From: Brevundimonas sp.
GTDB taxonomy: Bacteria; Pseudomonadota; Alphaproteobacteria; Caulobacterales; Caulobacteraceae
Length of the DNA: 64,000 nt
Direction: 5' to 3'
NCBI RefSeq assembly: GCF_013912065.1
Contig: NZ_JACESA010000001.1
Coordinates: 186,001 to 250,000, forward strand
Of this stretch, positions 906-5,597 are shown piece by piece. A program made the position numbers and the translations under genes. The notes below the pieces were generated by a model. That model was given only the letters and a program-made list of their open reading frames with translations. It made no database searches and was not told where the DNA came from. Each line of letters begins with the position of its first letter. Position 1 is the stretch's first letter.

Positions 906-1244
906 ATGGCTATTCCGACACCCGTGAACGGTCAGATCACCGACGCCGTCACCCAGGCGAATGTGAAGGTCCTCGGCGACGCCCCGGCGATGGCCATGGG
1001 CGCGATCTACCAGTCGCTGGCCCACTCGACCGGCATTCTCTACGAAAACGCCACCTCGTCGCAGCAGCAACTGGCGATCGCCGCCCAGGCCGCGACCAAT
1101 CAGGGCGTGATCCAGATCTACAGCGTCGACACCATGGCCGGCGCCGTGGCGACCTCGAAGATCGCCCAGTCCGACACGCCCGACAACATGCTGGCCCTGC
1201 TGACCGCCCTGCGCGCCGTCGGACCGTCGGCCGCCGTCTCCTGA
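906..1244 (+). CDS. rebB: RebB-family R-body protein, copy 1
   Basis: A 112-residue protein of the RebB (R-body, 'killing trait') family. RebB-type proteins are the small structural and assembly proteins of R-bodies, coiled protein ribbons made in the cytoplasm. The N-terminal family signature is clear ('QITDAVTQANVKVLG', residues about 10-24), followed by an Ala/Gln-rich helical stretch containing 'SSQQQLAIAAQAATNQG'. Start is ATG at 906 behind AAGGAGA; an upstream in-frame extension to 813 is rejected. It is the first gene of a same-strand run of about 3.7 kb. It is nearly identical to the next gene, with about eight substitutions over the first hundred residues, which points to a recent tandem duplication. 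Confidence 0.92.
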   Translation: MAIPTPVNGQITDAVTQANVKVLGDAPAMAMGAIYQSLAHSTGILYENATSSQQQLAIAAQAATNQGVIQIYSVDTMAGAVATSKIAQSDTPDNMLALLTALRAVGPSAAVS

Positions 1245-1276
1245 CGCTCAACCCACAACAAAGAAGGACTTGAGAC

Positions 1277-1600
1277 ATGGCGCTTCCCACACCCGTCAAC
1301 GGCATGATCACCGACGCCGTCACCCAGGCCAACGTGAAGGTTCTGGGCGACGCTCCGGCTATGGCCATGGGCGCGATCTACCAGTCGCTGGCTCACTCGA
1401 CCGGCATTCTCTACGAAAACGCCGCCTCGTCGCAGCAGCAGCTGGCGATCGCCGCCCAGGCCGCGACCAACCAGGGCGTGATCCAGATCTACAGCGTCGA
1501 TACGATGGCCGGCGCCGTCGCGGCGAGCAAGATCAGCCAGTCGGACACGCCCGACAACCTGATGTCGCTGTTGACCGCCCTGCGGGCTACGGCGGTCTGA
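1277..1600 (+). CDS. rebB: RebB-family R-body protein, copy 2
   Basis: A 107-residue near-copy of the preceding Reb protein, differing mainly at the C-terminal tail. It has the same N-terminal 'TDAVTQANVKVLGDAPAMAM' block and Gln/Ala-rich centre, so it is probably a main structural subunit of the ribbon. It starts at ATG 1277 with AAGGA nine bases upstream, 32 bp after copy 1, clearly in the same operon. The duplicated DNA spans most of both genes, so slippage or gene conversion between copies is possible. Confidence 0.92.
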   Translation: MALPTPVNGMITDAVTQANVKVLGDAPAMAMGAIYQSLAHSTGILYENAASSQQQLAIAAQAATNQGVIQIYSVDTMAGAVAASKISQSDTPDNLMSLLTALRATAV

Positions 1601-1700
1601 CGCCGATGCGTTCGGCGACGCCAGCGCGCGTCGAACGGCCAGACCTTGACTGCCGCGGCGGGAGACTGGAGCCCGCCGCGCCCACCCCTGGAGGACGACC

Positions 1701-2066
1701 GTGGCCGAGGCGAACGAAAAGAAGCCGGCGAGCGAAACCGGACGGACCAACCTCGGCGATTATGAGGAAGTCCTGAAGCTCGCCATGGAGCTGAGCCGGA
1801 ATCCGGCGACGGCGCCCATAGCGGAATCTGTGGCCAGCACCCTGCTGACCGTTATCGGTTCCGGCCCAAGCTTCGCCGCGATGCAGAGCCTGGTCGCCGC
1901 CAATCAGGCCAGCGGGATGATGTATCACAATGCGGTCGCCAACCAGCAGACCACCAACATCCTGGGCATGGTGGCGACCATGAACTGCGTACAGGCGCTG
2001 ATGGACAAACCGTCCGTCGTTCCCTGGCCCGACATAGGTCCGCGTCGCGAGGAGCCGTTCGAATGA
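1701..2066 (+). CDS. Divergent Reb-like protein
   Basis: A 121-residue protein starting at GTG 1701 behind GGAGGA. It lacks the canonical 'ITDAVTQ' opening and has instead a charged, Lys/Glu-rich N-terminus of about 30 residues. The middle ('MQSLVAANQASGMMYHNAVANQQTTN') resembles the 'IYQS..HSTGILYENA..QQQ' core of the flanking Reb proteins, so I read it as a diverged paralogue. The C-terminal tail is Pro- and charge-rich. Its stop overlaps the next start by four bases, indicating translational coupling. It may be a modified subunit or an assembly factor. Confidence 0.65.
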   Translation: MAEANEKKPASETGRTNLGDYEEVLKLAMELSRNPATAPIAESVASTLLTVIGSGPSFAAMQSLVAANQASGMMYHNAVANQQTTNILGMVATMNCVQALMDKPSVVPWPDIGPRREEPFE

Positions 2067-2389
2067 CACGAGAAGAGAAGCATATCAGGGAAGACGAGCG
2101 ACTGGAGCGCTGTCGGGACGACACCCTCCTGTTTTGCGCAGGGGCCGGGGTCTGCAACGCTGGTCTCATAACCCTTATGGCCTCCGCGGACGCCTTCGCG
2201 GCCCGGCTCGCCGCATCGACGCAATATGCGTCAGAGCTGTCGACTTTGCAGCTTCGCCAACTCGCCTTGAGCCTGGCTGATATGCAGCCGTCGCGCACCG
2301 CCAGGACCACCGAGGTGGGGGTCCGTTCGGTGTCGCGGGTCACGCGCGAACCATCGTCGGCGTTCTACGGCGCGCCCGTCGTCACTTGA
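2063..2389 (+). CDS. Hypothetical protein in R-body operon
   Basis: A 108-residue protein I do not recognise. Its ATG overlaps the upstream stop in an ATGA arrangement. It has an acidic/basic N-terminus, a small-residue hydrophobic segment (about 24-48, with two cysteines, 'FCAGAGVCNAG') and a leucine-rich amphipathic helix (about 55-75), with a basic, disordered-looking tail. The middle faintly echoes Reb helices but lacks the family motif. The tight coupling argues for a role in R-body production. Assignment is by context only. Confidence 0.6.
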   Translation: MTREEKHIREDERLERCRDDTLLFCAGAGVCNAGLITLMASADAFAARLAASTQYASELSTLQLRQLALSLADMQPSRTARTTEVGVRSVSRVTREPSSAFYGAPVVT

Positions 2390-2414
2390 ATTTCCAGAGG
2401 GAGGAGGCGTCGTC

Positions 2415-4022: not shown

Positions 4023-4040
4023 GCCGGAGGGGCGCGCGCC

Positions 4041-4304
4041 ATGACTGAAGATCAGCCCTCCACCGATGAAGCCCCATCAGGGGAAGCGGGGTCGTTCAAG
4101 GATCCCGTCGTCCTGGCGGCCCAGAGGATGGTCGTCGAGATATTCGCCATGGCCACGGCACAGTTTCCGGAGCTGTTGAAAACCCAGACGCCGGCCGGCG
4201 CCGAGGTCCAGAAATTCACCGACGCCATGCTGGTTCAGCTGCAGGCTCAGGTGACGCGGGCCCTCGGCGTGGGGCCCGACGATGACGGAGAAAGCAAGAC
4301 GTGA
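4041..4304 (+). CDS. Small hypothetical protein in R-body operon
   Basis: An 87-residue acidic protein of unknown family: a disordered Asp/Glu/Ser-rich N-terminus (about 1-18) then an amphipathic helical region ('VVLAAQRMVVEIFAMATAQF', about 23-42) and a Gln-rich helix near the C-terminus. ATG 4041 lies 18 bp after the previous gene with GGAGG nearby, and its stop overlaps the next gene's GTG by four bases. Function unknown; membership of the reb transcription unit is well supported by spacing. Confidence 0.6.
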   Translation: MTEDQPSTDEAPSGEAGSFKDPVVLAAQRMVVEIFAMATAQFPELLKTQTPAGAEVQKFTDAMLVQLQAQVTRALGVGPDDDGESKT

Positions 4305-4615
4305 GCGACGCCCAAGGCGCAGCCGGACGCCATCTCTATGATTCCATCTCAGAGCAGAAGCATGCGGTCGTGGACGGCTTTGCCGATCAGCGCGAGGTTC
4401 TGAAACGCGCCGTAGCCGACCAGAGGCTGTCGGCTATGCCGGAAGAAATGCGCCGCGCGGCGATGGGTCCGTCCGCTCAGGTCAGTCTCGAAATCGTCGA
4501 GGCGCTGCGCGGCATCATCACGCGGGAGGTCACTCGGCAGTTGGATCTGGCCATCTGCGCTATGATCGACCAGGCGGCCAGAGCGCCGGCTAAGGACGTG
4601 ACGGCCGGCGAATAA
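4301..4615 (+). CDS. Small hypothetical protein, last gene of R-body operon
   Basis: A 104-residue protein with GTG start at 4301 inside the preceding stop (GTGA overlap). It is predicted mostly helical and charged, with a possible hydrophobic C-terminal helix ('LDLAICAMIDQAA'). No family recognised. It ends the tightly packed run; the next 229 bases are non-coding and lead to the sigma-factor gene. No convincing intrinsic terminator is visible after it, so read-through into the sigma gene is possible. Confidence 0.58.
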   Translation: MSDAQGAAGRHLYDSISEQKHAVVDGFADQREVLKRAVADQRLSAMPEEMRRAAMGPSAQVSLEIVEALRGIITREVTRQLDLAICAMIDQAARAPAKDVTAGE

Positions 4616-4664
4616 ACGCCAGAAGGCCAGATTATTTTCGCAAACCCTGCGTTCCAAGCTTCAC

Positions 4665-4684
4665 AAAAATCAAAAATACCCGTC
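4665..4684 (+). promoter_or_regulatory. Candidate ECF-sigma promoter upstream of the sigma gene
   Basis: AAAAATCAA (4665-4673) is followed by CGTC at 4681, in a 229-bp non-coding stretch between the last small reb-operon gene and the sigma factor. The same arrangement precedes the first reb gene (783-804). If real, the sigma factor would activate both its own gene and the R-body operon, a common ECF feedback design. The transcript leader would be about 150 bases. Confidence 0.3.
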
Positions 4685-4844
4685 TAAGTTGTATCAGTGA
4701 ATGTGTCGGCTTGATATGCGCGCGTTGACCGAGGTCAGACGCGGCCGGGGCGACTGCATCCGCTGACTGCCAGGACGCTGTGCGCGGGAATAGGCCCCTT
4801 TCGTCGACCAAGGGCCGGTCCGCCGCCGCGGGGGAGTGACGGAT

Positions 4845-5597
4845 ATGAATGTCTTCCGGCTGTTTCCGGAAATAGAGGGGCAAGAGGAAAAAGAGTCGGA
4901 GGCCGCTGAAACGCGGGTTGCGCCGGTTGGGAAAGCGCGTCGCTCCTTCCCAAGCCCCAAGGCTTCACGCTCTCCGACCCCAGTCGAGGTCCTGGCCAGG
5001 GCCGCCCAGGGCCGAGGCGGCGGTCGGTTCGTCGGCGCAGCCATGACGCCCGCCGCGGTGATCGCGCGCTCCCTCGACCGGCCGCCGGGTCTGGACGCTT
5101 TCTGGGCGATCTGGATGGCGCATCAAAACACCCTGCGGCAACGAAGCCTTCGCCTGTCCGGCGGAAACCGCGCCGACGCCGAGGATGCGCTGAGCGCGGC
5201 CATGGTTCGCGCGGCCCAGGCCTTTGGTCGGCAACCGGTTCAGAATCCCGGCGCCTGGCTGGTGCGAATTCTACACAATACCTGCATGGATCAGCATCGG
5301 CGGAACGCTCATCGCATCCCGATCGAGACGGACGACGCCGACCTGCCGTCGCCGTCCCCCGCAGCTTGGGTGAAGGCGGCGCCGTCGCCCGAAGAGGCCT
5401 TGTCGCAGCAAGAGAGCGAGGCGGCCTGGAACCGGGCGATGAGCGCCTTGCCCGCGAGCCTGGTCGAACCCCTGCGGCTTCATCTGGACGACTGGAGCGA
5501 CGAACGGATCGCCGCTCATCTGAACATCAGCCGAGAACTGGTGCGCAAGCGGCGTCAACTGGCCAAGAACCGGCTGCGGTTGCTGTTGGACCTCTAG
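4845..5597 (+). CDS. ECF-type RNA polymerase sigma factor
   Basis: Sigma-70-family extracytoplasmic-function factor of 250 residues. Region 2 lies at about 83-155 ('DAFWAIWMAHQNTLRQR', 'DAEDALSAAMVRAAQAF', 'WLVRILHNTCMDQHRR'). Region 4 lies at about 190-250 with helix-turn-helix 'DERIAAHLNISRELVRKRRQ'. The start is ATG 4845 with GGGGGAG ten bases upstream; a GTG nine bases earlier is less well placed. The roughly 65-residue charged, Pro/Ser-rich N-terminal extension is unusual for an ECF factor; starting at ATG 5043 would give a standard 184-residue protein but with no clear ribosome-binding site. No anti-sigma gene is adjacent. Its position points to control of the reb operon. It ends convergently with dipZ, overlapping by four bases. 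Confidence 0.88.
   Translation: MNVFRLFPEIEGQEEKESEAAETRVAPVGKARRSFPSPKASRSPTPVEVLARAAQGRGGGRFVGAAMTPAAVIARSLDRPPGLDAFWAIWMAHQNTLRQRSLRLSGGNRADAEDALSAAMVRAAQAFGRQPVQNPGAWLVRILHNTCMDQHRRNAHRIPIETDDADLPSPSPAAWVKAAPSPEEALSQQESEAAWNRAMSALPASLVEPLRLHLDDWSDERIAAHLNISRELVRKRRQLAKNRLRLLLDL

Follow-up and report, generated by a model that had tools for sequence, protein, structure and literature searches.

An R-body locus of Brevundimonas with a linked ECF sigma factor and a shared candidate promoter sequence

R-bodies are SDS-insoluble ribbons of protein, coiled and able to extend, that form within bacterial cells. The part of the 2013 report by Raymann et al. that is used here gives one to nine Reb homologues per genome (PMC3583457), and sigma factors encoded near reb genes have already been published, as HP2.3 (PMC3583457) and as FecI2 (PMC8322103). 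In Pseudomonas aeruginosa PA14, FecI2 is needed for reb expression, as is the transcription factor RcgA, according to the cited sections of PMC8322103; PMC4362757 describes a motif for FecI2.

In this report, we describe a reb locus of Brevundimonas sp. (assembly GCF_013912065.1, contig NZ_JACESA010000001.1, positions 186,001-250,000 of the forward strand). Coordinates refer to this whole 64-kb stretch of DNA, which we call the window. A row of 11 genes (906-4615), seven of the Reb family and four small genes of no known family, is followed by an ECF sigma gene (4836-5597; Table 1). The locus is the sole RebB locus of the genome (6 matches in a genome-wide RebB search). Probably, it is a complete R-body locus under the control of its own self-activating ECF sigma factor, which apparently activates the operon, its own gene and a divergent gene through one common promoter sequence; R-bodies are predicted to assemble from the products of the reb row. 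What is new here is this proposed regulation, and not the number of paralogues. A preliminary description of the locus had treated that number as unusual, a view that is not supported, given the one to nine homologues already reported (PMC3583457) and the rows of about six RebB-type genes closing with a g8-like gene, which Stenotrophomonas, Xanthomonas and others commonly have.

Table 1. Features of the locus, in window coordinates
Feature	Position	Strand	Evidence
Divergent gene (up), ~201 aa, family not recognised	30..635	-	Homologue alignment
Candidate promoter of divergent gene, TTCAC-N16-CGTC	722..746	-	Pattern search; in 8/11 cassette loci
Candidate promoter of reb operon, TTCAC-N16-CGTC	802..826	+	Pattern search; in 11/11 cassette loci
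g1, long RebB	906..1244	+	Pfam RebB 97.1 bits
g2, long RebB	1277..1600	+	Pfam RebB 95.1 bits
g3, diverged RebB, N-terminally extended	1701..2066	+	Pfam RebB 35.6 bits
g4, family not recognised	2063..2389	+	Alignment
g5, short RebB, first type	2415..2642	+	Pfam RebB 64.4 bits; g5 clade in tree
g6, long RebB	2646..2981	+	Pfam RebB 74.3 bits
g7, short RebB, second type	3001..3234	+	Pfam RebB 75.8 bits
g8, diverged Reb closing reb row	3266..3649	+	hhalign vs Reb
g9	3672..4022	+	Found in 10/11 cassette loci, window counted
g10	4041..4304	+	Found in 11/11 cassette loci
g11	4301..4615	+	Found in 11/11 cassette loci
Candidate promoter of sigma gene (autoregulation), TTCAC-N16-CGTC	4660..4684	+	Pattern search
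ECF sigma factor, N-terminal extension	4836..5597	+	Sigma70_r2, TIGR02937

Eleven small ORFs were scored with the Pfam RebB profile (cut-off, 24 bits). Six exceed the cut-off (those starting at 906, 1277, 1701, 2415, 2646 and 3001), including all five that had been singled out for this check (906, 1277, 2415, 2646 and 3001). The products at 2063, 3266, 3672, 4041 and 4301 gave no match to this profile. The one at 3266-3649 (g8) was recognized by hhalign comparison with Reb (probability 97.1, E 7.6e-11, 75 columns), and a contig scan found its relatives in at least 56 loci of named genomes. The cluster thus holds more than three RebB-family genes, six above the Pfam cut-off and one by hhalign, and the composition originally proposed, seven Reb-family proteins and four unknowns at the same ORF positions, stands. 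A comparison of g4 with Reb by hhalign gave no support for a further diverged Reb. Matches of g1 to poly-ubiquitin in PDB are regarded as chance, and g2 had no match in a phage collection.

In the cited part of PMC13430693, QITD is given as the signature of R-body structural proteins, and the NAV and QQQ motifs of Reb proteins are described as not absolute. Read from our alignment, QITD is present in g1, g5 and g6, with MITD in g2 and QVTD in g7. QQQ occurs in g1 and g2 and QQ in g5 and g7, g6 having neither; NAV occurs in g6 only, and the other aligned Rebs have NA followed by a different residue. In a Reb tree of 16 chosen loci, the short types g5 and g7 form a clade (99/92), within which the g5 clade is nested (98/97). 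Of the 11 sigma-bearing loci of this tree, 9 have both short types, which L235 and L246 lack. The pattern of short and long RebBs pointed out in the preliminary description is real, and the two short types are, judged from the tree, old; the more elaborate ribbon proposed there on this ground may or may not follow.

Gene content and order match the window's in 10 of 22 other loci compared by tblastn (seven from the same genus and three from two other genera), and the cassette is therefore not a chance grouping. The remaining 12 loci hold other reb types or one weak match. All eight genomes of the genus having six RebB matches carry the eleven-gene cassette. At one cassette locus, L067, g4 and g9 give no tblastn match, and an extra g1 is present. 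The four unknown genes, for which a synteny search had been proposed earlier, recur in the cassette loci, save for g4 and g9 in L067; g11 (4301) also has a possible partial counterpart in two other loci. Matches of g4, g9 and g10 (2063, 3672 and 4041) were confined to Caulobacterales among the loci scanned. Putative g10 counterparts in L152-L155 were rejected, with an hhalign probability of just 1.4. The C-terminal GAPVVT of g4 is identical in 10 aligned proteins, the window's among them.

Such a locus might have been repurposed, its Reb-like proteins polymerizing into some other intracellular assembly and making no extendable ribbon. The divergence of g3 and g8 would suit this reading, as would the restriction of three or four accessory genes to Caulobacterales among the scanned loci, and a search by title or abstract start found no literature report of R-bodies in Brevundimonas. 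We nonetheless regard repurposing as quite improbable, because g1, g2 and g7 retain the RebB signature and share 88-100% identity with the corresponding proteins of ten other cassette loci, over three genera (91-100% for g7, by tblastn), as close-packed subunits would.

The sigma factor exceeds the cut-off of Sigma70_r2 and that of TIGR02937 (60.1 vs 42.9 bits). It has the ECF layout of regions 2 and 4 only, region 4 lying under the Pfam cut-off (Sigma70_r4_2, 20.9 vs 25.7). Its start may be the ATG at 4845, to judge from a conserved N-terminus that reads MNVFRLFP here and MNVVRLFP in most relatives. FecI-like iron-starvation sigma factors come with a FecR anti-sigma factor and a TonB receptor, and neither was found among the searched products of 30-7324. 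An orthologue of the window's sigma factor is present in all eight cassette genomes of the genus and absent from the other 123 genus genomes, three of which give weak matches (34-38%). The linkage of a reb locus to an ECF sigma factor, as first described, is thereby upheld, and likely promoters lie before the operon, the sigma gene itself and the divergent gene. Among 385 genomes of the class, a strong-tier sigma was found in 8, RebB in 15 and both in 7; genome G462 has a strong-tier sigma and no RebB.

In a sigma tree of 17 reb-linked rows and rows from 23 other loci (L237 omitted), all 17 reb-linked sigmas fall into one clade (98/87), together with a single non-reb row. With respect to the Group 2 sigma (HP2.3-type, near reb genes), the window's sigma shares this clade with those of loci in Ruegeria and Burkholderia that we assigned to Group 2 from their Crp/Fnr and sigma genes; these lie on long branches, so that their placement is less sure.

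The pattern TTCAC-N16-CGTC has three matches in the window, all at the reb locus. Shuffled windows contained 0.54 matches on average, and three were reached in 1 of 100 shuffles. The site before the sigma gene is exact in 9 of the 11 cassette genomes, takes the variant CGTT in one more (L034) and is missing from L068. When the letters of the motif were rearranged, the real arrangement was the best of 360 (itself counted), with 23 sites vs 6 for the runner-up. The rest of the genome has the motif at 17 further places (20 in total, 3 at the locus) vs 5 for a reversed control pattern, and 14 of these 17 fall within some ORF of at least 50 aa. Two of the three others precede pstS-like and rpoH-like genes, as identified by reading. 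As for the operon leader, a conserved RNA structure was considered and rejected; consensus folding gave 10 pairs, and the covariation term was +0.61 kcal/mol.

Motif occurrence was counted over 85 distinct reb loci. Duplicates were merged (L071 with L175, L074 with L167, L248 with L244 and L254 with L173), and four of the 93 listed loci were excluded for want of a RebB match (L162, L165, L179 and L184). Matches inside RebB intervals were also excluded, because, at a spacing of 17, the pattern can also match the RebB codon signature read on the opposite strand (window 942 and 1313). Of 25 loci with a nearby sigma gene, many of which are close kin (the window, L037 and L145-L149 are of one genus or nearly), 24 have TTCAC-N16/17-CGTC, vs 2 of the 60 loci without such a gene (Fisher, 8.8e-18). 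After dereplication at 90% identity, the motif is in 11 of 12 sigma-bearing vs 2 of 32 sigma-less loci (p 1.2e-7), and among loci gathered once the pattern was fixed, in 9 of 10 vs 2 of 12.

The motif was deduced from sequence alone, and R-bodies could be made while some other regulator or sigma factor binds it, the neighboring ECF gene just traveling with the locus. Locus L238 has the sigma gene and no motif; L242 has the motif and no sigma gene in 12 kb, its genome (G602) being without a sigma-profile match at E 1e-15; and PA14 needs RcgA as well as a sigma factor (PMC8322103). Still, two short blocks spaced 16-17 resemble a -35/-10 pair, the motif tracks the sigma gene and not the reb genes in the counts above, and it also precedes the sigma gene itself. 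We therefore consider binding by another factor unlikely and retain recognition by the linked sigma factor.

The extent first given to the locus, 906..5597, contains the 11-gene row and the sigma gene but is too narrow, as the promoters at 722-746 and 802-826 and a missed divergent gene (30-635) belong to it. Conserved N-termini point to 635 as the probable start of this gene. Among 131 genomes of the genus it was found in 5, and among 125 of the family in 3; every one of these has the cassette. Its protein had no match in Pfam, NCBIfam, PADLOC or PDB sequences and only two weak matches in PHROG (E 0.35 and 0.43), and viral contigs yielded no confirmed relative. That this gene is unconnected with R-bodies, having no more than an intergenic region in common with the operon, is, in our judgment, rather doubtful. 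It is missing from 4 of the 11 cassette loci, and L068 keeps the divergent motif with the gene gone; yet all seven loci carrying the gene have a motif copy before it, no cassette-free genome of those 131 and 125 has it, and its distant homologues, in L162 and L183, lie on contigs bearing g8 relatives.

PD-(D/E)XK nucleases have an alpha-beta, restriction-endonuclease-like fold, with a D and an ExK at matching spacing within a conserved core. Read by eye, the divergent protein has a PD-(D/E)XK-like residue pattern: D109, E127 and K129 are invariant in five of five near homologues, present in L067 and lost in the distant homologues of L162 and L183. The protein, presumed to be co-expressed with the ribbon genes, could act as an accessory or as an effector.

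If the sigma factor recognizes TTCAC-N16-CGTC, a slight increase in its level would turn on its own gene, those of the ribbon and the divergent one together. Such a self-activating switch is in line with the report that PA14 expresses its reb genes in rare cells. As ribbon components, the long RebBs (g1, g2 and g6) and the short types (g5 and g7) would not be interchangeable; g3 and g8 would be diverged subunits or factors for assembly, with g4, g9, g10 and g11 as accessories specific to the lineage. The ribbon would extend once a grazer has taken up the cell. A broader proposal, to which we attach little likelihood, is that one ECF sigma family and one promoter code govern R-bodies in sigma-bearing reb loci across several proteobacterial orders and that the Brevundimonas regulon also includes a nuclease-like protein delivered by the ribbon. 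If this were true, the divergent protein would become a candidate for the payload of R-bodies, which has long been sought.

On the questions of how R-bodies are switched on and what they carry, a promoter readable in raw sequence offers a way to test any genome for R-body regulons. The signature also draws attention to genes that are not part of the ribbon, the divergent gene being an example here. With their conserved short and long types, the RebBs provide a defined subunit set for structural work on R-bodies, and Brevundimonas would serve such work as a free-living host that is tractable.

The locus resembles rebABCD of Caedibacter taeniospiralis in its RebB-type structural proteins, g2 being 38.8% identical to a plasmid copy, and differs from that small plasmid locus with its RebA-D (PMC3583457, in the part cited). 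Like the window, Stenotrophomonas, Xanthomonas, Azospirillum and Hydrogenophaga taeniospiralis have a RebB row followed by a g8 relative, but these rows have no nearby sigma gene and no motif. The five sigma-less loci in the Reb tree, unlike the window, have no proteins of the g5/g7 clade. The g8 protein may be one of the Reb-like HPs of the Group 1 synteny (HP1.1 to HP1.4). The PA14 cluster likewise combines an ECF sigma gene with reb genes, whereas its content, as given in the cited sections of PMC8322103, is two RebP genes and one RebD with FecI2, RcgA and RapA. With regard to the hypothetical proteins HP2.1 and HP2.2 of the Group 2 synteny, proteins of 205-220 aa from L246 and L247 gave nothing below E 0.003 against the window's profiles, the closest being weak matches of hyp217 to the divergent gene (E 0.0035) and hyp208 to g11 (E 0.014). 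The Group 2 loci, on a megaplasmid of Ruegeria pomeroyi and a plasmid of Burkholderia pyrrocinia, combine a Crp/Fnr regulator with three or four RebBs, whereas the window has seven Reb-family genes, two short types, g4 and g9-g11, and no Crp/Fnr-type regulator (HP2.4) among the searched products of 30-7324. Like the window, both loci carry RebB genes beside an ECF sigma gene of the same clade and have the same promoter signature upstream of their reb genes.

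The closely packed row of eleven genes (g1 to g11) and the ECF sigma gene beside it constitute a genuine reb locus, as the preliminary description had proposed. Pfam recognizes RebB in six of the eleven genes, and profile comparison adds g8 as a diverged Reb. The same kind of comparison ruled out g4 (2063-2389) as a Reb, and domain profile searches with g9, g10 and g11 returned no family match. A whole-genome RebB search of the window's genome detected no second locus. The number of paralogues, which had been offered as a ground for novelty, is ordinary: PMC3583457 already reports up to nine reb homologues, as well as a sigma factor beside Group 2 reb clusters. 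The new part of the locus is its putative regulation, together with a divergently oriented gene upstream of g1 that was not previously counted in the locus.

Features of the reb locus (window coordinates) and of related excerpts (excerpt coordinates)
Feature	Position	Strand	Basis
Row of eleven genes, g1 to g11	906-4615	+	ORFs
g8, diverged Reb	3266-3649	+	hhalign probability 97.1, E 7.6e-11
ECF sigma gene, downstream of row	4836-5597	+	profile matches
Divergent gene	30-635	-	homologue searches
Motif upstream of operon	802-826	+	pattern search
Motif upstream of divergent gene	722-746	-	pattern search
Motif upstream of sigma gene	4660-4684	+	pattern search
Autotransporter-like gene, 1035-1110 aa	L035, L038, L041, from about 7250-7510 to near excerpt ends	-	by eye: repeats, signal-like start

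RebB is present in 11 of 131 Brevundimonas genomes (10 above the cut-off), and the eight with six RebB matches all carry the cassette. Of 299 genomes sampled from the family, 33 have RebB matches; four from other genera have at least six matches, and three of these (loci L067, L068 and L069) carry the cassette, the fourth being of another type (G134). By tblastn, gene order is identical across the 11 cassette loci, the window included; L067 has a doubled g1, and its g4 and g9 were undetected. Identity to counterparts in other cassette loci is 88-100% for g1, g2 and g7, and 36-77% for the fast-changing g4, g9 and g10. A gene named recO-like by eye adjoins the locus in the four genomes whose flanks were compared (the window's, G004, G023 and G027). 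Two genus genomes (L039 in G063, L040 in G093) have a different, two-RebB locus with neither cassette nor sigma gene and no motif outside RebB genes, and fifteen Caulobacter-type genomes of the family sample, including G291 (L076) and G189 (L077), have a single RebB match and no row.

Orthologues of the sigma gene (61-100% identity) occur in all eight cassette-bearing genus genomes and are absent from the other 123, three of which give weak matches of 34-38%. In three genomes the gene lies 5-6 kb farther on, behind the autotransporter-like gene, which sits between g11 and sigma; one of these, a draft, has sigma split over two frames. Of 385 genomes of the class, eight gave strong sigma matches (all at or below E 2.0e-47, with 5.7e-25 as the next value), 15 have RebB and seven have both; G462 (L233) has a strong relative, yet no RebB match. 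In a midpoint-rooted tree of 40 ECF factors, all 17 reb-linked sigmas and that of G462 form one clade (98/87), separate from 22 other near ECFs; it includes, on long branches, sigmas of Ruegeria and Burkholderia loci that we assign to Group 2. Judged by sequence, the reb-linked sigmas thus appear to be one family. The window's sigma begins with a short conserved peptide, MNVFRLFP (4845-4868), followed by a variable linker; relatives read MNVVRLFP, MTIVPLFP, MKVVPLYP or MVVIKFPL.

When the region upstream of g1 was aligned in 11 loci, two blocks were common to all, TTCAC and CGTC, 16 nucleotides apart. This candidate promoter signature, TTCAC-N16-CGTC, has three matches in the window, all at the reb locus; shuffled windows averaged 0.54, and three were reached in 1 of 100 shuffles. 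The operon site is present in 11/11 cassette loci. The divergent site is present in 8/11, comprising all seven with the divergent gene plus L068, which lacks it; the sigma site is exact in 9/11, reads CGTT in L034 and was not found in L068. The whole genome holds 20 matches, versus 5 for the reversed pattern. Matches also lie upstream of genes named by eye as pstS-like (L101) and rpoH-like (L114), and comparable sites are present in further genomes of the genus; these may belong to other regulators.

When named genomes were scanned with the g8 family, at least 56 loci matched; among the matches listed, most are sigma-less RebB-type rows that close with a g8 gene. Among these listed matches, g3, g4, g9, g10, g11 and sigma occur together only in seven Caulobacterales loci (L145-L151), and a related sigma adjoins the row in five more (a Rhodospirillaceae MAG, Methylobacter tundripaludum, an alphaproteobacterial MAG, Kordiimonas marina and Tistlia consotensis). 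In the M. tundripaludum locus (L153), one row of seven RebB-type genes (314-3097) is followed directly by a second of the same size (7348-10333); motif copies precede both rows and also an inner gene.

After enlargement from class samples, phylum samples and plasmid records, 89 loci had a RebB match, 85 of them distinct once four repeats were removed. With a spacer of 16 or 17 and matches within RebB genes excluded, the motif occurs in 24/25 loci with a nearby sigma versus 2/60 without (Fisher 8.8e-18), and in 11/12 versus 2/32 after dereplication at 90% identity (1.2e-7). Among 360 letter arrangements, the real motif included, it gave 23 sites in 11 loci; the next best gave 6 in 5. Loci collected after the pattern was fixed gave 9/10 versus 2/12 distinct loci, and when only sites at most 200 bp ahead of a RebB gene were counted, the figures were 17/20 versus 2/57, two of these 57 being repeats. 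One sigma-less exception, L232, has its genome's strong sigma 17 kb away; the other, L242, lies on a 12.7 kb contig from a genome with no sigma-profile match at E 1e-15.

The short RebB types g5 and g7 are old subunit types. A tree was built of 112 Reb proteins drawn from 16 loci; it has few columns and many unresolved forks. One of its clades (20 rows, 99/92) unites g5 and g7 with their counterparts, and the g5 types make up a nested group within it (10 rows, 98/97). Of the eleven loci with a sigma, nine have both types, in a range that runs from Caulobacterales to Methylobacter; L235 and L246 lack them. The tree's remaining five loci, all without sigma (Stenotrophomonas, Xanthomonas, Hydrogenophaga, Reichenbachiella and Bealeia), contribute no protein to the clade; some carry other short Reb proteins.

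The divergent gene was found in 5/131 genus and 3/125 family genomes, all of them cassette-bearing, and also in L067 and L069, from another genus. Its product retains D109, E127 and K129 in all five aligned homologues, which we take to be a PD-(D/E)XK-like pattern. The pattern is lost in more remote relatives, from Elstera (L162) and Desulfatibacillum (L183), so catalysis would not be a family-wide feature. Apart from two weak PHROG matches, searches found no family, PDB-sequence or viral relative.

Among the publications listed by the literature searches, judged from titles and abstract openings, none describes a promoter common to several reb loci or R-bodies in Brevundimonas; PMC11338181 names both R-bodies and Brevundimonas. 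Further sources on the subject are PMC13430693, PMC3377617 and PMC10688885. In PA14, FecI2 is required for reb expression, which was observed in 0.26% of cells (PMC8322103), and a FecI2 motif has been derived (PMC4362757).
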